A stretch of 44,050 nt of DNA from NCBI GenBank assembly GCA_019459485.1, contig JAIBEZ010000055.1, positions 1 to 44,050 on the forward strand, given 5' to 3'. Position numbers and translations under genes: made by a program. How positions within the stretch are numbered: position 1 is the first letter of the stretch; each line of letters starts with the position of its first letter. Positions 4,933-44,050 of this stretch are shown piece by piece. This DNA comes from Prolixibacteraceae bacterium (lineage in GTDB: Bacteria; Bacteroidota; Bacteroidia; Bacteroidales; Prolixibacteraceae). The notes under the pieces were generated by a model. That model was given only the letters and a program-made list of their open reading frames with translations. It did no database searches and was not told the DNA's origin.

Positions 4933-5835
4933 CAATTCAATTTGATTCTTGCCGGCCCAGTTTTTTAGCCCATTTTTAGTTTCTGAAATGGCCAGTAAAA
5001 AGCCGCCACCGCCCGATCCCAAAAGTTTTATAAAAACCTTTTCGGTTAGCGCTGCTGAAATTATACCATGAAAATCTCCGGGTATCATTCGCCGAAAATG
5101 CTGTAACTGAAAGTGAATCAGTTGTTCCAGAAAAAGAAAAAAGTTTTGATGATTACCGCTCAGCAATGATTCGATGCAACCGTTGTTGGCCGGAATAAAC
5201 TGTTTATCGAAGGCCAGTTTAAACTCCGGAAAGTTAAGCTGACCGATAAAATGCTGAACCAGCGGGCCGGTCGGTCCGGTTGTTCCGGTATCAATTAACG
5301 CAAACGATAAATCAGTTTCAGCCAAATTTATTTTTGCCTGGTGGATCATTTTTTTTGAATCGATCAGCAAAGGACAGTTCAAAAATGAAATTAGCGGATC
5401 AATCCCCGAACTTTTGCCATGAAAATAGCTTTCCAGCATTGAAAAATCAACTTTCAGCAATTCAGGTGTAAGTTCTTTCTCAGGAACAAAAGCAGCAGCA
5501 TACCGGCTGAAAAGCGCCGCCACCAATGCGCCAGAACTTCCAACTCCATATTGCTGCGGAATATTGGAATTGAAATACAATCCTCTTTCAAGATCCTTTT
5601 TCAAACTTTCAAGATCGAACGGGAAATGCAGTTTATGGCTGTCAGCGCCGGTTTTCAGATGTTCATAAAACTTTCGGATTTCGTCCGAACTTTCCTGGTG
5701 GGAATGATCTGCGTCAAAATCGAGACAGCCGGAAAACCGGTCGAAGGGCACAGAAAGCGCCTTTGCACCGAACATCAATCCGTATTCGCCAAAGAGCAGG
5801 AGTTTTGAGTTGAAGAATTCCGGTTTAAAGTTCAA
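4918..5835 (-). CDS. mvk: Mevalonate kinase (GHMP kinase family)
   Basis: The enzyme phosphorylates mevalonate to 5-phosphomevalonate with ATP; 305 residues. GHMP motif 1 is KLLLFGEYGLMFGAKAL (11-27). Motif 2, the phosphate loop, is PQQYGVGSSGAL (93-104). FHGKSSGIDP is the mevalonate-kinase-type segment carrying the catalytic Asp, and motif 3 is LLGSGGGGFLL near the C-terminus. No ATG precedes motif 1. The only sensible start is TTG at 5835, which lies inside a heptamer repeat (5831-5858), so the repeat supplies the start codon. It is the last gene of the minus-strand cluster, 64 bases after mvaD. Phosphomevalonate kinase is the alternative reading, but the second kinase gene at 6961 is the better candidate for that step. 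Confidence 0.82.
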   Translation of the reverse strand: MNFKPEFFNSKLLLFGEYGLMFGAKALSVPFDRFSGCLDFDADHSHQESSDEIRKFYEHLKTGADSHKLHFPFDLESLKKDLERGLYFNSNIPQQYGVGSSGALVAALFSRYAAAFVPEKELTPELLKVDFSMLESYFHGKSSGIDPLISFLNCPLLIDSKKMIHQAKINLAETDLSFALIDTGTTGPTGPLVQHFIGQLNFPEFKLAFDKQFIPANNGCIESLLSGNHQNFFLFLEQLIHFQLQHFRRMIPGDFHGIISAALTEKVFIKLLGSGGGGFLLAISETKNGLKNWAGKNQIELLMVI

Positions 5836-5858
5836 TGTTCAAAGTTTAAAGTTAGCAA
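5831..5858. repeat. Heptamer short tandem repeat across the mvk start
   Basis: The units are TTCAATG, TTCAAAG, TTTAAAG and TTAGCAA. The TTG start codon of mvk (minus strand, 5833-5835) lies inside the first unit. Confidence 0.6.
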
Positions 5859-8005: not shown

Positions 8006-9304
8006 GTACTCTTCAACCGCCGAAAAACTCACGGTTTTATCCTGAAAATATTGCTGTATTTCAGTCCTTTTTTCTTCCGGAATATTTAGTTGATTCAGGA
8101 TATTGCTCAAATGCATTTTCATGTGTCCCTGCTGAATTCCGACAGAAACCAGCGCTTTGACTGCACCAAAATTGGATGCCAGTCCGGCCACAGCCAGATA
8201 CGTCATTAATTCAGATGCAGACGGATTATCCAATATTCGCATCGCCAGTTTCGAAAGTGGATGAACCGCTGTTATGCCGCCAACCACCCCAACAGCCATC
8301 GCAATCTCGATGCTGAACCGAAACACTCCATCCTGGATCCGAACATCGGTCAGTCCGCTGTAATGGCCATTTCTGGCGGCAAAAGCGTGTCCGCAAGCTT
8401 CAATGGCCCGAAAATCGTTTCCGGTTGCCACAGCCAGCGCGTCAATCCCGTTAAAAATACCTTTGTTGTGGGTTACTGCGCGCGAAACATCTGCCTGCGA
8501 AATACGGATTGCCTGCTCAAATTTTTCAGCAAAATGTATTTTTTCTTCCATCGATTTTCCCTCAAGCAAGTCAGAAACCGGACATTCCACCCAGGCGCGA
8601 ACCCGACTTTCAGGAGTATAATTCGACAAAATTGCCATGATGATTTCACAATCGCGCTGGCCGGTTGAAACCTTTTCGCTGGTCATAAAATAATCCTGAA
8701 GGCTTTTCCCGAACTGCTCCAGACACGAATTTATAAAGTTGGCGCCCATTGCATTGCAGGTTTCAAAACCGGCATCCAACTGGAAATAGTTAGGCAAAAT
8801 ATGGGGCAATGATTTAAGTTCAACGTGGGTAATTCCGCCTCCGCGCGCTTCCATTTTTGCTGTCAGAAAATTACTTTCAGCAAGTAGCTTCAACTTGATT
8901 TCAGGAAAAAGCGATTGTAAATACTCCGGATTTCCATTCCATTTGAAATGAACCTGTCCCTTTTTCTCTGTAACCAAAACTTCGGCATGAAAACCGCCCC
9001 GTTTCGCCCAAAAACCGGCTGCATTTGCCAGCGCTGCAACGACTGAACTTTCTTCGGAAACCAATGGGAAGAACAAATTCTTGCCATTCACTACAAAGTT
9101 GGGAACAAGGGAAAAGGGAAAAGGGAAAATGGAAACCGGATTTTCGCTTAGGTCGTCGATGATTTTTTGTACCGATTCATCAGGAATTTCAAAGGATTTT
9201 AGCCATTGTTTCAAATCCGGATCAAAACCATATTTATGAATCAGCGCGTCAATCCGCTGTTGTTTCGTATATTTTGAAAACCCTTGTATGATGGAATTAT
9301 CCAT
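7985..9304 (-). CDS. mvaA: Hydroxymethylglutaryl-CoA reductase, class II type
   Basis: Interconverts HMG-CoA and mevalonate with NAD(P)H; 439 residues with no membrane anchor, as in class II (bacterial, 'degradative-type') enzymes. Catalytic residues are placed by motif: Glu in EESSVVAA (84/85), K281 in THNKG, D297 in TGND, and H394 in GHMKMH on the C-terminal flap. The ENVIGxF..PLG..TNF segment of the family is replaced by ENPVSIFPFPFSLVPNF (54-70) at equal length; this stretch is encoded by a 7-base tandem repeat. Class II enzymes can run either way, but the kinases and mvaD downstream favour mevalonate synthesis. Its ATG overlaps the fni stop by 8 bases. Confidence 0.92.
   Translation of the reverse strand: MDNSIIQGFSKYTKQQRIDALIHKYGFDPDLKQWLKSFEIPDESVQKIIDDLSENPVSIFPFPFSLVPNFVVNGKNLFFPLVSEESSVVAALANAAGFWAKRGGFHAEVLVTEKKGQVHFKWNGNPEYLQSLFPEIKLKLLAESNFLTAKMEARGGGITHVELKSLPHILPNYFQLDAGFETCNAMGANFINSCLEQFGKSLQDYFMTSEKVSTGQRDCEIIMAILSNYTPESRVRAWVECPVSDLLEGKSMEEKIHFAEKFEQAIRISQADVSRAVTHNKGIFNGIDALAVATGNDFRAIEACGHAFAARNGHYSGLTDVRIQDGVFRFSIEIAMAVGVVGGITAVHPLSKLAMRILDNPSASELMTYLAVAGLASNFGAVKALVSVGIQQGHMKMHLSNILNQLNIPEEKRTEIQQYFQDKTVSFSAVEEYWKNLES
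9101..9135. repeat. Heptamer tandem repeat inside the HMG-CoA reductase gene
   Basis: Units GGGAACA, AGGGAAA three times exactly, then ATGGAAA. They lie within the reductase coding sequence (residues 57-68). Because 7 is not a multiple of 3, gain or loss of one unit would shift the frame. Confidence 0.7.
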
Positions 9305-34420: not shown

Positions 34421-34429
34421 GTCAAAATA

Positions 34430-34457
34430 GTTTAAAGTTCAAAGTTCAAAGTTATGG
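34430..34457. repeat. Heptamer short tandem repeat carrying the manC -7 element
   Basis: The units are GTTTAAA, GTTCAAA, GTTCAAA and GTTATGG. The last junction creates the minus-strand -7 element TAACTTTG used for manC. Confidence 0.65.
34447..34454 (-). promoter_or_regulatory. Promoter -7 element of manC inside a heptamer repeat
   Basis: Minus strand TAACTTTG, perfect TAnnTTTG, 26 bases 5' of the ATG at 34420. Repeats of TTTGAAC follow it downstream. Confidence 0.5.
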
Positions 34458-38140: not shown

Positions 38141-39436
38141 CTACAAATGAACTTTCAGGGTTCGGTAGCCATAAATGGCAATTACAACAAAACAAATGAG
38201 CGGTAAAATGAACGAGAAATTTACGGCAGGAATACCTGCAACTGTTCCCAGATCAATGATTGCCCCTTGCAGTGGTGGCATTAATGCGCCTCCAACAATG
38301 GCCATTACCAAACCGGCTGCGCCAAGCGTGGCATCTTCGCCAAGTCCTTCCAGCGCAATGCCGTAAATAGTTGGAAACATGAGCGACATAAACGCTGAAA
38401 CGCCAATCAGGCAATACAAACCGGCCATTCCCTGAATCAGGATAACGCCCAGTGTCAGCACAAAACCGCCGATAGCAAAGGCTGTTAAAAGAACTCTCGA
38501 ATTCAGGTATTTCATCAGCATGGTGCTGATAAACCGGCTCGACAGGAAAATAGCCATTGCTACAATATTATAGTTTTGTGCCTGAGCTTTTGTGAGCCCC
38601 AGATTTTCAGCATACTGAATGATGAATGTCCAGCACATAATTTGAGCGGCCACATAAAAAACCTGCGCGATTACACCTTCGCGGTATTTCACGTTGGCAA
38701 TCAGTCTTCTGAAAGTATCCATTGCATGAATGGTATGATCGGGATCTTTCCGTTTGGGCATCTTGAAAAAGAAAATGACCAGAAGCATGGCGATCACCAC
38801 AAAGCCAAGCATTACATACGGATCGCGGATCACCGCCAGGTCGTGTGTTCGGATGGCTGCTTTTTCGGCAGCGCTCAGCGTTGTGAAAATCAGGTCTCCT
38901 GCCTCATTTCTTACATCTGATTGAAGCGAAGTCAGGATAAAATTTGAAGCCACAAACATGCCAAGCAAAGAGCCCATCGGATTAAACGACTGAGCCAGGT
39001 TTAGCCTTCTCGTTGCGGTTTCTTCATCGCCCATCGACAGAATGTAAGGATTGGCGGTAGTTTCCAGAAATGCCAGTCCGAAAGTTAGAATGTACAACGA
39101 CAAAAGGAAGAACTCGAAAACTTCGTACTTGGCAGCAGGGTAGAACAGGAGCGCCCCCAGGGCATACAATCCCAATCCAACCAGAATTCCTTTTTTGTAA
39201 CTGTACCTTTTTACATACAGTGCCGCCGGAATGGCCATCGTGGCATATCCGCCGTAAAATGCGAACTGTATCAATGCGGCTTTTGCATTCGAAATCTCCA
39301 TGACGGTTTTAAACGCGGCCACCATCGGATTGGTAATGTCGTTTGCAAATCCCCATAAGGAAAACAGGCTGGTAATCAGAATGAAAGGAACCAGCAATTC
39401 CCTTGAAACAACTTTTGCTTTGGTTTTAGTATCCAC
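38141..39436 (-). CDS. fucP: L-fucose:H+ symporter, MFS type
   Basis: A 431-residue major-facilitator sugar importer with twelve hydrophobic helices. The FucP signature LFSLWGFANDITNPMV (24-39) contains the conserved D33, and the helix-4 glutamate E126 lies in FGLAFLETTANPY; these match the two acidic residues that couple protons to sugar in E. coli FucP. Glucose/galactose relatives (GluP) are possible, but the downstream genes favour L-fucose or a related 6-deoxy sugar. GTG at 39436 is the only start near the family N-terminus. First gene of the operon. Confidence 0.88.
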   Translation of the reverse strand: MDTKTKAKVVSRELLVPFILITSLFSLWGFANDITNPMVAAFKTVMEISNAKAALIQFAFYGGYATMAIPAALYVKRYSYKKGILVGLGLYALGALLFYPAAKYEVFEFFLLSLYILTFGLAFLETTANPYILSMGDEETATRRLNLAQSFNPMGSLLGMFVASNFILTSLQSDVRNEAGDLIFTTLSAAEKAAIRTHDLAVIRDPYVMLGFVVIAMLLVIFFFKMPKRKDPDHTIHAMDTFRRLIANVKYREGVIAQVFYVAAQIMCWTFIIQYAENLGLTKAQAQNYNIVAMAIFLSSRFISTMLMKYLNSRVLLTAFAIGGFVLTLGVILIQGMAGLYCLIGVSAFMSLMFPTIYGIALEGLGEDATLGAAGLVMAIVGGALMPPLQGAIIDLGTVAGIPAVNFSFILPLICFVVIAIYGYRTLKVHL

Positions 39437-39449
39437 AATTCAGATCGTT

Positions 39450-39498
39450 TAGTTTATTTACTGATTCAAAAATCAATAAACTAATCCGAATTGCCAAA
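39450..39498 (-). promoter_or_regulatory. fucP operon promoter with candidate LacI-type operator
   Basis: On the minus strand TTTG (39495-39498), a 20-base spacer and GATTTTTG (39467-39474, one mismatch from TAnnTTTG) form a promoter. The -7 box is bracketed by a 9-base inverted repeat TAGTTTATT/AATAAACTA (39450-39458 and 39475-39483), and an inner TGATT/AATCA pair lies within it. The position over the -7 element suits repression by the divergently encoded LacI-family protein. Operator function is inference. Confidence 0.5.
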
Positions 39499-39600
39499 TT
39501 CAATTTCGAAATGGTCACTTCGCAAAGCTTTGCACTTTAAAAAATGTGTTGAGGAACATTTTATTGAGGGTGTGACTAAGCACATTTTAGAATCAAAAAT

Positions 39601-39664
39601 TCACCACAGATTACTCAAATTTTCACAGATTAAAATCCGTGTTAATCTGTGAAATCTGTGGTGA
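39601..39664. repeat. 64-base nested palindrome in the fucP-lacI spacer
   Basis: The outer arms TCACCACAGAT/ATCTGTGGTGA (39601-39611, 39654-39664) pair over 11 bases. The inner arms TTTCACAGATTAA/TTAATCTGTGAAA (39621-39633, 39642-39654) pair over 13 bases around an 8-base loop. The 'CACAGATTA...TAATCTGTG' wording is one I recall as an extragenic repeat in Bacteroidota; a partial relative occurs near 23862-23885. It sits just upstream of the LacI gene's -7 element. Confidence 0.6.
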
Positions 39665-39676
39665 GTAAAAATCATT

Positions 39677-39684
39677 TAGATTTG
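39677..39684 (+). promoter_or_regulatory. Promoter -7 element of the LacI-family regulator gene
   Basis: TAGATTTG, perfect TAnnTTTG, 33 bases before the ATG at 39718. The -33 region falls in the right arm of the 64-base palindrome. Confidence 0.55.
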
Positions 39685-39717
39685 TAATTTCAGCCATTGT
39701 TTTAATAACCTGAATTT

Positions 39718-40740
39718 ATGGCCAAAAGGCATGTTTCGTTGAAGGACCTGGCAACAGAACTGAACGTTTCCATTTCAACCGTTTCGAGGGCGTTGAAGAA
39801 CCATCCGGATATCAGTTGTGAAATGACCCGGAAGGTTCAGGAATTGGCACGCGCCAGAAACTACACGCCCAATCCGCTAGCCATGGGTTTGCTGAGGCAG
39901 GAAACGCGTATGATCGGTGTGATTGTTCCGGATTTGGTAACCCATTTTTTTTCGTCGGTCATCTCCGGAATTGAGTATGTTGCCAAACAAAACGGTTATT
40001 ACATCCTGATTTCATCTTCCAGCGAATCGTATGGGAAAGAAGTTGAGTCGGTGAGGAATTTGCTGAATACACGCGTGGAAGGGCTGATTGTTTGCCTGAG
40101 TCAGGAAACCAAAACTTTCGATCATTTTGACGTACTGATCAACAACGAAATACCGCTGGTGTTTTTCGACCGGGTTTGCCGTACCGACCAGGTTCCGAGT
40201 GTGGTTGCCGACAATGCCGAAGCAGCGCGGCAGGTTACCCGGCACTTTTACGAAAACGGATGCCGCCGGATTGCGTACATCAACGGGCCGGAGCAACTGA
40301 GCATTTCGAAACTTAGGTATGAAGGATATTTGCAGGGATTAAAGGATTGTAACCTGCCCTTTGAACCCGAATTGGTAGGAAGTTGCAACCTGAGTCCCGA
40401 AGATGCTTCGGTGGCCACCCGAAAACTGTTGCGCCTGAAGAACCATCCCGACGCCATTTTCGGAATCAACGATACCGTTATTTTCGCGGCGATGCGGGAA
40501 ATTAAACAATTCGGGCTGACAATTCCGACCGACATTTCGCTTGTTGGGTTTACGGGCGAGTTCCATTCAACGGTGGTCGAGCCTTCACTGACTTCCATTA
40601 CGCATCCAACTTTTGAAATGGGAAAAGAAGCCGCCCGGTTGTTCTTCGAACGCATTCAACATCCAACCGCGCCCCCGCAGCAAATAGAGATGAAAACCAG
40701 TCTGGTGATCCGAAATTCTTCGAAGAAGAAAGCGTTGTAG
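39718..40740 (+). CDS. LacI-family transcriptional regulator
   Basis: A 340-residue repressor-type regulator. The N-terminal helix-turn-helix and hinge run from VSLKDLATELNVSISTVSRAL (6-26) to NPLAMGLLRQ. A periplasmic-binding-protein-like sensor domain follows (GVIVPDLVTHFFSSVISGIE onward), with the ligand-pocket segments FFDRV, VVADN and GFTGEFHS. It is divergent from the fucP operon and is the natural candidate for its sugar-responsive control; a palindrome over the fucP -7 element is the suggested site. The 21-bp array begins 15 bases after its stop codon and stays in its reading frame. Confidence 0.92.
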   Translation: MAKRHVSLKDLATELNVSISTVSRALKNHPDISCEMTRKVQELARARNYTPNPLAMGLLRQETRMIGVIVPDLVTHFFSSVISGIEYVAKQNGYYILISSSSESYGKEVESVRNLLNTRVEGLIVCLSQETKTFDHFDVLINNEIPLVFFDRVCRTDQVPSVVADNAEAARQVTRHFYENGCRRIAYINGPEQLSISKLRYEGYLQGLKDCNLPFEPELVGSCNLSPEDASVATRKLLRLKNHPDAIFGINDTVIFAAMREIKQFGLTIPTDISLVGFTGEFHSTVVEPSLTSITHPTFEMGKEAARLFFERIQHPTAPPQQIEMKTSLVIRNSSKKKAL

Positions 40741-40755
40741 TTCAAGTTGCTCTTC

Positions 40756-41112
40756 AAAAAAACTATTTTACTCTTCAAAAAAACTACTTCGCAACGTAAA
40801 AAAACAAAAGTACGCCTCAGAATAATAGAATTACAATGCAAAAAAACAAAAATACGCCTCGAAATAATAGGATTACAATGCAAAAAAACAAAAGTGCGCT
40901 ATGAAATAATAGAATTGCAATCCAAAAAAACAACTTTGTAATTCAAAAAAACAAAAGTGTACTGCAAAAAAATAGAATTGTACTGTGAAAAAACAAAAGT
41001 GTACTGCAAAAAAATAGAATTGTGCTGTGAAAAAACAAAAGTGTACTGCAAAAAAATAAAAGTGTACCACAAAATAATAGAATTGGAATTCAAAAAAAAC
41101 ACTTTGAATTTG
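40756..41112. repeat. Array of seventeen 21-bp units with phased A-tracts
   Basis: Seventeen consecutive units of exactly 21 bases run from 40756 to 41112 without a single insertion or deletion. The commonest unit is AAAAAAACAAAAGTGTACTG followed by C; a second form begins AAAAAAATAGAATTG or GAAATAATAGAATTG. In much of the array the two forms alternate, giving a 42-base higher order. Units differ at many positions yet keep length. A-tracts recur every 21 bases, i.e. about every two helical turns. There is no spacer/repeat division as in CRISPR. Function is unknown. Confidence 0.9.
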
Positions 41113-41270
41113 ACCTTCTGACCTTCCCTAAAATAGCTTTTGACAAGATTTATGTATCAATATTTTGCCCCAAAGGAATTTAAAAAATTAAGTTAGTAAA
41201 AAACAATAAATAGTTTTGAATTATAAACATAACTACTTACATTTAACCCACCCAAAAGCAAAACATAAAT
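41113..41270. other. AT-rich spacer after the 21-bp array
   Basis: About 160 AT-rich bases. No gene, promoter consensus or repeat could be supported. Confidence 0.5.
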
Positions 41271-41352
41271 AAAAAGGGAATGCGCATAGAAAATACTAAA
41301 CGCTTATGGAAAAGTAAGGGGAGTTTTGCGCTGTTTTTTTAGTTATGCGCCA
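41271..41352. other. Cassette-boundary-like site, left of the EEP gene
   Basis: It begins AAAAAGGGAATGCGCATAG and ends AGTTATGCGCC. GCGCATA (41282-41288) is an exact inverted repeat of TATGCGC (41344-41350), 69 bases end to end, ending in GTTATGC. Size and GTTR-type end recall attC recombination sites, though the left arm lacks the matching AAC. Compare the site at 42112. Confidence 0.4.
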
Positions 41353-41390
41353 CAAAAAAGGACAGTGAAACTAACAACTTGAGAGATAAA

Positions 41391-42104
41391 ATGAGATTAA
41401 TAACCTGGAATTGCCAAGGAGCATTTAGAAAAAAGGTAGATATTATACTGACCCAACGACCAGACATTTTGGTTGTACAAGAATGTGAGCATCCAGACAA
41501 ATTGGTTTTTAGTTCGACAACTCACCGCCCCAATGACTTTTTGTGGTTTGGCGACAATAAGCATAAGGGACTTGGAATTTTTTCATACAGCGACTTTCGG
41601 TTTCAACTTCTTGACAGGCACAACGAAGACATAAAGATAATTTCACCAGTTTCTGTTACTGGAGGACAACTTGATTTTACACTTTTTGCGATTTGGGCGA
41701 ACAACTGCAAAGACCCCGACGGACGATACATTGAACAAGTTTGGAAAGCAGTAAATCATTACGATCAAATTTTAGAAAGTAAGCTGACTATTTTGACTGG
41801 AGATTTTAACAGTAATAAAATCTGGGACAGAGTGCATCGAATAGGAAATCATTCTGCTGTGGTTGAGAAGTTAGCTGAGAAAAATATTTTTAGTGTTTAC
41901 CACAAGCTTTTAAATCAAGAACAAGGTAAAGAAAATCATCCGACTTTTTTTTTGCAACGCAACAAGGACAAGCCTTATCACATTGACTATTGCTTCGCAT
42001 CTGCAGAACTTTATGACAAGGTGAAAAATATTGAAATTGGAACATACGAAAACTGGATTGCTCATAGTGACCACACACCTTTAATTATGAACTTTGACTT
42101 ATGA
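41391..42104 (+). CDS. Endonuclease/exonuclease/phosphatase-fold protein
   Basis: A 237-residue protein of the EEP superfamily (DNase I / exonuclease III fold). Motifs: N7 in LITWNCQGAF, E31 in ILVVQECEHPD, D138 and N140 in LTGDFNSNKIWD, and the C-terminal D227-H228 in AHSDHTPLIM, i.e. a complete Mg-dependent phosphodiesterase active site. It is shorter than exonuclease III and lacks a signal peptide. The target may be DNA, RNA or a phospho-lipid/sugar. ATG 41391 is chosen; a TTG four codons upstream is less likely. Its AT-richer composition and flanking boundary-like sequences suggest it was acquired as a module. Confidence 0.82.
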   Translation: MRLITWNCQGAFRKKVDIILTQRPDILVVQECEHPDKLVFSSTTHRPNDFLWFGDNKHKGLGIFSYSDFRFQLLDRHNEDIKIISPVSVTGGQLDFTLFAIWANNCKDPDGRYIEQVWKAVNHYDQILESKLTILTGDFNSNKIWDRVHRIGNHSAVVEKLAEKNIFSVYHKLLNQEQGKENHPTFFLQRNKDKPYHIDYCFASAELYDKVKNIEIGTYENWIAHSDHTPLIMNFDL

Positions 42105-42111
42105 CAGAAAA

Positions 42112-42252
42112 TAAAGGGCGAACGCATAGCAGCTACCTGCAAATTCGGTAGCAGTGGCTTCCGGCGTGTATCTTTTCGCTCAAGCAGCTTATCGGCTCGA
42201 TAGGAAATTGCCTGCAATCCTCAATATTTCATGCACGTACCGTTAGCAGGCA
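42112..42252. other. Cassette-boundary-like site, right of the EEP gene
   Basis: It begins AAAGGGCGAACGCATAGC, close to the opening of the left site, and ends CCGTTAGCAGGC. It contains a stem GCTACC/GGTAGC (42132-42137, 42147-42152). It starts 7 bases after the EEP stop codon and ends about 20 bases before the next gene, as expected of a gene-plus-site cassette. Confidence 0.4.
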
Positions 42253-42272
42253 TTAAAATTGAAACTTGAATT

Positions 42273-43208
42273 ATGAGAAAACTTTTAATATTGGCAGTAT
42301 TTGCTTTGAAATTAATGGTAGCCAATTCGCAGGTTGATTCTGTCAAATCAACAATTACAACCAAAACAATTGGTCAGTTCTTAATTACTACTCATGATTC
42401 AGTGGAAGTAATTGTCAAGGTAGATAAGGTGAAATATTTAGACAAGCAGAAATTTAGTTTTGACGAGGCTGACGTTTCGATTCGAATTGAGGATAAAAAC
42501 GGGAAAACATACTATTTAAGGAATCTTTCGACTGTTGAAAATGAATTGAATGGTGTTAAAAGTATCGACTTGCCCGGTGTTGGTAAGGCATTGATTTTAG
42601 TCTATGATCAGTTTCCATGCTATGGGACAGGATGTTGCAGTTTTCAGATTTTTGGATTCAATGGATTGGGTTATTTTGTTCCTTTTACCGGAATTATTGA
42701 TTTGGGAAATTGTGGAAATCCGGATTTAGTCGCTAATTTCAAATTAAAGTGGATGGATAAACATGGGAATGAAGTTTCTGTATCGAAAAATACATCATTT
42801 GATCAGTCGTATTACCCGGATGGAGATCAATTATATATTGAAGTAATTACTGATTTTGTATTATTTGAGGTTCAGTCTTTAAATTATTTCCCAATTTATA
42901 GGGGCGGTGTGTGGTATGATAAAGCTTATGACCAAAACACTTTTGAGAAAGGGCCTATTTTTAATAATAACTCCAATATTATTGTAATGAAGGATACGAA
43001 TGAAGATTATAAGGAACCCAAAGCTTTATATACTATTCCCAACACTTTGGGTGATTATAAATTGGTGATTTTTAAACTCAATACAAAGGTTAAACTAATA
43101 GATATGAAACTTAATTCTGAATCATGGATTCATTTAGAGATTGATGGGGTTGAAGGTTACATGACTTATTCTGATTTTTCTATGTCAGGTTTTTCGCTTT
43201 GTGAGTAA
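42273..43208 (+). CDS. Secreted protein of unknown function with C-terminal SH3-like segment
   Basis: Not recognised as a known family. The first 20 residues (KLLILAVFALKLMVANSQ) are a Sec signal peptide. The body is 311 residues, rich in beta-type alternation, with a cysteine cluster FPCYGTGCCSFQIFG (about 114-128) and a further Cys in DLGNCGNPD. The last 50 residues (VKLIDMKLNSESWIHLEIDG, then VEGYMTYSDF) have the W-x-x-V/L-x2-DG-x-EGY pattern of bacterial SH3-like domains, often used for binding wall peptides. Low GC content compared with the metabolic genes suggests transfer. A second unrelated secreted orphan follows. Confidence 0.65.
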   Translation: MRKLLILAVFALKLMVANSQVDSVKSTITTKTIGQFLITTHDSVEVIVKVDKVKYLDKQKFSFDEADVSIRIEDKNGKTYYLRNLSTVENELNGVKSIDLPGVGKALILVYDQFPCYGTGCCSFQIFGFNGLGYFVPFTGIIDLGNCGNPDLVANFKLKWMDKHGNEVSVSKNTSFDQSYYPDGDQLYIEVITDFVLFEVQSLNYFPIYRGGVWYDKAYDQNTFEKGPIFNNNSNIIVMKDTNEDYKEPKALYTIPNTLGDYKLVIFKLNTKVKLIDMKLNSESWIHLEIDGVEGYMTYSDFSMSGFSLCE

Positions 43209-43350
43209 GATAATTTCGGTTACCTATAGAGATGAAAAGAGTGGATTAGAAAGAAGCTGTACTTAGTAGGATGTTTTTCTGGAAAAATTCCTACCTGATT
43301 GGTTTTTCGGAACGTTCCCAACAATATTAAATGCATTAAGAACCAAACTC

Positions 43351-43914
43351 ATGAAAACAATAATAATAACAATAATTACACTTTTAATCTTGTCATTGAC
43401 AACTTTTGGACAGGGTTATTTTCAGGTAAATAGTGAGGTAAAATTAACTGAGCTCAACAGAAAACTTGAAGTTGGCAGATTGATACCGAAAAATCATGAA
43501 CTTATTCGTGACGGGAAAGGTAAAATGTTTATTAAAAGCACCTTACATGTCAACGATTCATTACCATCTCATGTACTGGTGAGAATTTCAGAGCTTGATG
43601 GAAATCTAATTAAGGAAATTGACACAAAATATGTTTGGGATGATCTGGACTTTTTCTTTAGTACGAGTTATATAAATAATCGAAAGTTTATTATCATGGC
43701 CCGAAGGGGAGCCTTTTATATTATAAATCTATCTACCAATATCCTTATCGGACCGATTCATTTAATCTCCAGAATAGAATGTGCACAAGATGGACAAAGT
43801 GGATTAATCTGGACTCAAGAAGTATTTAACGATGGACAATATTTGATTTTAAGTGCTATTGATGAAGGAATTTATTGTTTCAATCTGGATGATATTTATA
43901 ATCCTTTTGACTAA
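43351..43914 (+). CDS. Secreted protein of unknown function
   Basis: 187 residues with a clear Sec signal peptide (TIIITIITLLILSLTTFG, cleavage probably after residue 20). The mature part is predicted mostly beta: strands such as VLVRISELDGNLIKEID and GAFYIINLSTNILIGPIHL repeat a 'value reporting' pattern seen in beta-propeller-like proteins, but no motif is decisive. No family is recognised. AT-rich like its neighbour. Whether it forms a unit with the gene at 42273, 142 bases upstream, is unclear. Confidence 0.55.
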   Translation: MKTIIITIITLLILSLTTFGQGYFQVNSEVKLTELNRKLEVGRLIPKNHELIRDGKGKMFIKSTLHVNDSLPSHVLVRISELDGNLIKEIDTKYVWDDLDFFFSTSYINNRKFIIMARRGAFYIINLSTNILIGPIHLISRIECAQDGQSGLIWTQEVFNDGQYLILSAIDEGIYCFNLDDIYNPFD

Positions 43915-44050
43915 GTACATGACAAAAATTTAAAAATTCCTATATCATCTTGGAACAAAGCGTTTAACAGCACTGAAGCTATATAAGTTAATCCATATTT
44001 GAACAAACTTTTGGCTTTTTTCCCATGCTTTTTGACCTTGATTGGTTTAA

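Follow-up and report, generated by a model that had tools for sequence, protein, structure and literature searches.

Organization of the locus

The window, by which we mean the whole stretch of DNA analyzed here, is one entire contig of 44,050 bp. As summarized in Table 1, a LacI-family regulator gene is followed therein by a tandem array of 21-bp units, a spacer, a conserved sequence designated block A, and a first gene cassette ending in an attC-like site. The LacI-family gene is a chromosomal gene in front of a platform, and the array very probably constitutes the upstream (left-hand) border of this integron-type platform, which here comprises block A, the cassette, and the attC-like site, and has no recombinase gene. 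The original prediction had placed the array at a boundary to accessory DNA. This placement was borne out, and the acquired DNA appears to be an integron-type cassette platform.

Table 1. Features of the lacI-platform region of the window
Feature	Position	Strand	Evidence
LacI-family regulator gene	39718..40740	+	Pfam LacI and Peripla_BP matches; same-genus orthologs
21-bp tandem array of 17 units with higher-order 42-bp alternation	40756..41112	+	TRF and lag identity; 20-unit ortholog in G002
Spacer between array and block A; possible recombinase-gene remnant	41113..41192	+	Weak match to last recombinase codons
Block A (about 160 bp), conserved, attI/Pc-like	41193..41353	+	Sequence-only model R1; alignments
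First gene cassette, from TTATGCG up to the next GTT	41343..42242	+	Start pairs at 7 of 9 positions with start of the attC-like site at the cassette end
Cassette gene, endonuclease/exonuclease/phosphatase family	41379..42104	+	Pfam PF03372, E = 2.6e-8
attC-like site	42115..42241	+	E = 1.3e-19 with a profile built on seven attC-like sites from other platforms

Elsewhere in the window, three short tandem repeats of 7 bp were observed (5823-5853, 9101-9135, and 34429-34453). The contig breaks inside a repeat (43911-44050) that has several copies both in this genome and in others of the genus, frequently where contigs end. An Rfam search of 39000-44050 returned one sub-threshold match, alpha_tmRNA at 39650-39768 (20.7 bits, gathering threshold 50), which is probably due to chance, and gave no match to the array at E values up to 1.

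Structure of the array and the same site in relatives

All 17 units of the array were shown to be exactly 21 bp long. Both segmentation and TRF, in which indels amounted to 0% for the periods 21, 42, and 63 and to 4% in a single period-84 row, agree with the predicted seventeen exact units without any change of length over 357 bp. The self-identity of the array was 0.64 at a lag of 21, exceeding that of all 5000 mononucleotide shuffles (maximum 0.45), and was higher still, 0.73, at a lag of 42; the predicted alternation of two unit types is thus real. The non-repeat parts of the array were nearly invariant. As had also been predicted, the LacI frame in the window's genome (G000) continues past its TAG, with one more stop within the array.

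Orthologs of lacI are present in the genus, some of them without the array or the block. In G002, the nearest relative with an array, lacI is followed by 20 units, of which 19 are 21 bp and one is 22 bp, and the last unit carries one more single-base length difference. The original prediction had called the array indel-free and regarded frequent non-21-bp changes in related strains as counting against it. The description holds for the window copy and nearly so for the G002 ortholog, which differs mainly by whole units and additionally by these two single-base changes, so that the objection applies in part. Over 182 bases at the array start (40741-40923), G000 and G002 differed by 18 substitutions and one clear internal gap, compared with 25 substitutions and six internal gaps over 217 aligned bases of the flank, which is suggestive of small indels being rarer in the array than in the flank.

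In G009 and G007, block A follows lacI within tens of bases and the array is absent, while in G015 and G012, lacI is accompanied by neither block nor array in the stretch shown. As for the wider distribution of the unit, to which the original prediction had drawn attention, BLAST with the array sequence among 140 family genomes gave clear matches only in G000 and G002, the next-best match spanning 33 bases (E = 4.2e-6), with only about five candidates scored per genome. Look-alike units in G040 and G097 were attributed to chance: those in G040 are, by eye, coding heptads, and those in G097, a genome in which the family search detected no block, are intergenic with a possible heptad frame.

Block A and the platform recombinase

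Block A recurs at many loci, mostly with different genes behind it, and its strong conservation stops around the GTT at 41342. The sequence-only model detected it in 19 of the 140 family genomes and in 18 of the 23 genomes of the genus, counts that are lower bounds, as the filters were stricter and the candidates limited to 20 in each genome. A pattern for the core of the block matched 19 stretches of a genome collection, all in records named Prolixibacteraceae or Bacteroidota/Bacteroidetes bacterium, records very close to the window's genome possibly being absent from that collection. The genomes compared were mostly drafts. A search for conserved RNA structure in block A found none, and its promoter is one that we presume only from likeness to the Bacteroidota TTTG/TAnnTTTG pattern. 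In its behavior, block A resembles the attI/Pc end of an integron-type platform.

In G018:C73 (579 residues), G022:C62 (597 residues, TTG start), and G094:C135 (seen in part), the end of a tyrosine recombinase gene directly abuts the block, as does that of a broken one in G012:C30. The recombinase match stops 0-2 bp before the block profile at L195 (G018), L219 (G022), L223 (G094), and the broken L211 (G012). Only pieces of the gene were found within 400 bp of five more block copies (L180, L198, L203, L208, and L222), one of which (L198) is a fragment adjoining the block on C111 of the window's genome. No clear block adjoined other full-length recombinases of the family, those of G017:C25, G011, and G018:C104, where scores reached 8-10 bits at most. 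In the window's genome, which carries eight blocks at 39 bits or more, no intact platform recombinase was detected, its two matches being other tyrosine recombinases (33% and 30% identity).

The platform recombinase is nearest to the integron integrases and is without the extra segment of IntI; among solved chains, IntI4 (2a3v) is closest to it in sequence. Against TIGR02249, the G018 enzyme scored 217.7 bits, under the cut-off of 265, in two stretches separated by a gap at about 177-233. The platform recombinase (L195:2797-4536, L244:142-1878, and L229:2170-3951) has an additional N-terminal part of about 290 residues that contains three similar predicted strand-strand-helix stretches, the first with a weak DUF5710 match, in a structure model of low confidence (mean pLDDT 46.9). 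At L229 (G014:C57) and L215/L245 (G007:C269), block A immediately precedes a divergent recombinase gene, an arrangement suggestive of recombinase expression from the promoter of the block. G000, G006, G012, G018, G009, and G007 have 5 to 10 attI-like block matches each, most without an adjoining recombinase, that is, many entry sites and at most a few recombinases.

Just upstream of many blocks, there is a stretch resembling the last codons of the recombinase: 36 of 54 copies scored at least 12, compared with 25% of shuffles, and the strongest scores (28-44) were those of L165, L184, L185, L169, L189, and L205. On account of such remnants upstream of solo blocks, these loci look like decayed platforms. 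The remnant in the window is weak, with a score of 18, compared with up to 17 in 20 shuffles of the stretch.

Cassettes and attC-like sites

Downstream of blocks at eight loci, nine stretches were found to have an attC-like sequence of about 140 bp in common. Its start pairs with the nine bases that directly follow the block at a mean of 7.5 of 9 positions over 12 cassettes. These cassettes were drawn from 41 of 58 copies, namely those in which the GTT pattern was present; the remaining copies gave no site by the pattern used. Individually, five cassettes scored 9, two scored 8, two, including that of the window, scored 7, and three scored 5. Shuffled partners, in contrast, gave 5.62 ± 0.36, with a maximum of 6.92 in 2000 shuffles. 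The first attC arm thus pairs with the first bases of its own cassette as in integrons, while an IntI-type integrase with the extra domain is lacking; on these sequence comparisons, the platform would be integron-type by mechanism, with this one defining feature missing. The window contains only one attC-like site, and its single-strand hairpin fold was not significant (z of -1.19 and -0.82).

Arrays upstream of block copies

An array was called when the best lag equaled 20-22 bp or a multiple thereof and 38 or more of 63 positions matched. Of the 54 block copies tested, 20 had an array so defined within 500 bp on the upstream side; these 54 were the ones among 64 distinct block matches that reached 45 bits and had 300 bp or more of upstream sequence, the dropped matches including L218, which has a clear array. 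No such array was present in 50 downstream flanks, one of which repeats at a lag of 71, and among the controls, 27 of 2000 random windows and 5 of 165 block-free long intergenic windows had one (Fisher p = 6e-10 for the latter against the upstream regions). Three more upstream regions passed at other lags (two at 36 and one at 12). The count depended on the threshold, being 23, 20, 15, and 13 at 36, 38, 40, and 42, respectively, and 34 of the 54 copies had no array at the threshold used. The block copies are not independent, forming 31 upstream-flank groups, 18 of which have at least one array.

The pattern was first noticed in the window's own genome, which accounts for six of the 20 arrays and seven of the 54 copies; the remainder, 14 of 47, come from nine other genomes. 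Six clear arrays occur in the window's genome, on C69 (21/42 bp), C110 (41 bp), C43 (42 bp), C17 (41 bp), C29 (41 bp), and C106 (20/41 bp). C8 has a weak 41-bp signal only, and C111 passes the upstream test at lag 41 (39/63) with no array in a separate look. Noncoding arrays of 7, 11, 13, 14, and 21/22 bp were frequent in a sample of the same genome, and two loci of the G000:C17 sample (L149 and L150) have long 63/189-bp repeats within large open reading frames.

Of nine block copies that had a whole or partial recombinase within 400 bp, one had an array, compared with 19 of the 45 other copies, a difference that was not significant (p = 0.13). At L291, where the recombinase gene is cut by the contig edge, a 41-bp array lies 261 bp upstream of its start. 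The idea of a terminator or insulator was rejected, as arrays were equally present at co-directed (11/27) and opposed (8/18) nearest open frames, these being frames of 80 codons or more, some of which are probably not genes.

Conservation of spacing and turnover of units

The pooled spacings in 13 arrays were 20 bp in 45 cases, 21 bp in 38, and 22 bp in one, so that 83 of 84 were 20 or 21 bp; the anchors were picked by eye, spacings outside 14-27 were excluded, and some of the 13 arrays are orthologous. The other four of the 17 arrays examined were L159 (41 bp, five times), L164 (42 bp, five times), L109 (mostly 21 bp), and L204 (alternating 18-23, with a 41-bp sum). Units of different loci were mostly unrelated in sequence, one larger family, the GACGGC type, being recognized by eye in eleven copies at several loci.

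The seven-unit array of L186 (G002), L200 (G009), and L218 (G000) has no indels across the three species despite its divergence, although two of these copies score 37 and 36 of 63 and count as without an array in the upstream test. At the orthologous site in G012 (L185), AACATGACGGC-type units replace the CCCGGGACGGC-type ones. Arrays were also gained or lost between close relatives: at the lacI site (G009 and G007), between L164, with its 42-bp array, and L189 and L205, with none, and between L167, with about seven units, and L165, with two or three. Spacing rather than sequence seems to be kept in these arrays. The preservation of register proposed for the window array extends to a whole class of arrays whose units are mostly unrelated.

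Possible causes of the conserved spacing

One cause originally proposed for the 21-bp register was reading frame, the array extending LacI or encoding a heptad-repeat peptide. Compatible with this are the divisibility of 21 by 3, stop-free runs of up to 79 codons in G000 and 101 in G002, and the 21-bp array of G040 that reads as heptad codons by eye; however, the LacI frame of G002 is shifted and has several stops, the arrays of G000 and G002 both contain stops in all six frames, and related arrays of 41 bp or mixed 20 and 21 bp rule out reading frame as the cause. Coding is therefore refuted as a general cause and hardly credible in any form. The special curvature likewise suggested was not supported: the window array scored 0.830, permuted units averaging 0.810 and 46% of 100 permutations equaling or exceeding it, while the G002 ortholog gave 0.830 and seven other long, non-orthologous arrays 0.87-0.97. 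Also extremely improbable is a guide-RNA array of the TIGR-Tas type, a unit of which consists of two short repeats and two short spacers (PMC12045711). The dimeric 41-42-bp unit and the locus-specific repeats do resemble that description, but a Nop-domain match was found in none of the 23 genus genomes, compared with four of 14 control genomes, all four archaeal, and the window array has hardly variable non-repeat parts and no Rfam match. CRISPR arrays have variable spacers of about 30 bp, which 21-bp units are too short to house.

The arrays occupy the border of the platform, recur before block A at many sites, and combine a rigid spacing of 20-21 bp (41-42 bp) with units that differ between loci. 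Our tentative best guess is a phased protein array at this border that is read by shape or composition. The property kept would be a spacing of two helical turns, by which each unit presents the same DNA face; a nucleoid-type protein reading shape or base composition more than sequence may coat the array cooperatively, the coated array might isolate the promoter and attI of the platform from the upstream gene or tune them against it, and unequal exchange, in steps of whole units, would account for unit turnover. The upstream excess over all controls, the rigid spacings, the diverging yet indel-free array of three species, the exchange of unit type at an orthologous site, and the reality of the platform, as judged from the recombinase ending at the block and the cassette-start pairing, argue for this phased array, whereas the arrayless majority of copies, the large share of the window's genome among the arrays, their coming and going among close relatives, and the ordinary curvature argue against it, and unit copying alone keeps lengths alike inside one array. 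In a close rival, also quite possible, the arrays are a neutral, platform-linked satellite, a by-product of platform events whereby DNA is copied in steps of about 20-21 bp, for example by template switching when attI recombination resolves by replication, or by decay of the recombinase region, and persists only where the upstream DNA is dispensable. Such a satellite is consistent with the gain and loss between relatives, the lower (non-significant) frequency of arrays near recombinases, the recombinase-tail remnants at solo blocks, and the short 21/22-bp noncoding arrays elsewhere in the window's genome; on the other hand, we know of no mechanism that makes 20-21-bp steps with unrelated sequences, the units diverge strongly while the spacing stays, and the few small indels between the G000 and G002 arrays are suggestive against it. 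Ranking third and rather improbable are sequence-specific sites, either arm-type sites for the platform recombinase or operators of a regulator with locus-changing specificity. The three predicted strand-strand-helix-strand-strand-helix stretches before the recombinase core in the low-confidence model, the GACGGC-type family, and the array upstream of the recombinase at L291 point to such sites; against them, the remaining unit families look unrelated, the window's genome has arrays and no intact family recombinase, and palindromy was not general among the units of 18 arrays, only L159, L155, L174, and L101 reaching about 0.03-0.05 against permuted units. The sequence-specific iterons of the original prediction are disfavored because units differ between loci. 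Returning to the phased array, it is doubtful that integron-type platforms of this Prolixibacteraceae genus carry a functional upstream array set by spacing and not by sequence; such an array would be a sequence-free, satellite-like bacterial element that builds a nucleoprotein border, controls cassette expression or capture, and outlasts the recombinase.

Comparison with known systems

The platform resembles chromosomal integrons and CALINs in its single-gene cassettes, in the pairing of the attC-like first arm with its own cassette start, and in a putative fixed entry site beside a tyrosine recombinase in a few relatives. Integrase loss is one proposed origin of CALINs (PMC8618304), and the missing recombinase of the window's genome matches it. 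Unlike integrons, the recombinase here falls short of the integrase profile, positions of about 177-233 being absent, and several attI-like blocks are dispersed per genome, most of them recombinase-less and many preceded by arrays. By the default of IntegronFinder 2.0 (PMC9024848), a CALIN has at least two attC sites without an integrase, whereas the window has one attC-like site and its contig ends at 44050.

Among repeats, bacterial minisatellites (VNTR) likewise gain and lose whole units and have 42-bp higher-order repeats, but the arrays here recur at one kind of site with constant spacing and mostly unrelated sequence. Class 1 attI holds tandem repeats, short direct repeats upstream of the crossover, and is alike in this respect; the present arrays differ in lying upstream of a promoter-like block, in having more units, and in their locus-specific sequence. 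TIGR arrays also have dimeric, locus-specific units of similar size, but the genus has no Nop-domain match, and variable spacers are absent from the window array. Searches of the open PubMed Central set returned no description of arrays like those in front of block A.

The arrays represent an odd repeat tied to gene capture. If the spacing is selected, they would be a bacterial element inherited by length and not by sequence, a mode of inheritance proposed for eukaryotic satellites; if they are neutral, they would record a mutational process with a 20-21-bp step beside recombination sites. In both cases, Bacteroidota harbor an integron-like system in which a genome has several dispersed attI-like blocks, and because its recombinase scores under the cut-off of the integron-integrase model, routine integron searches may miss it.
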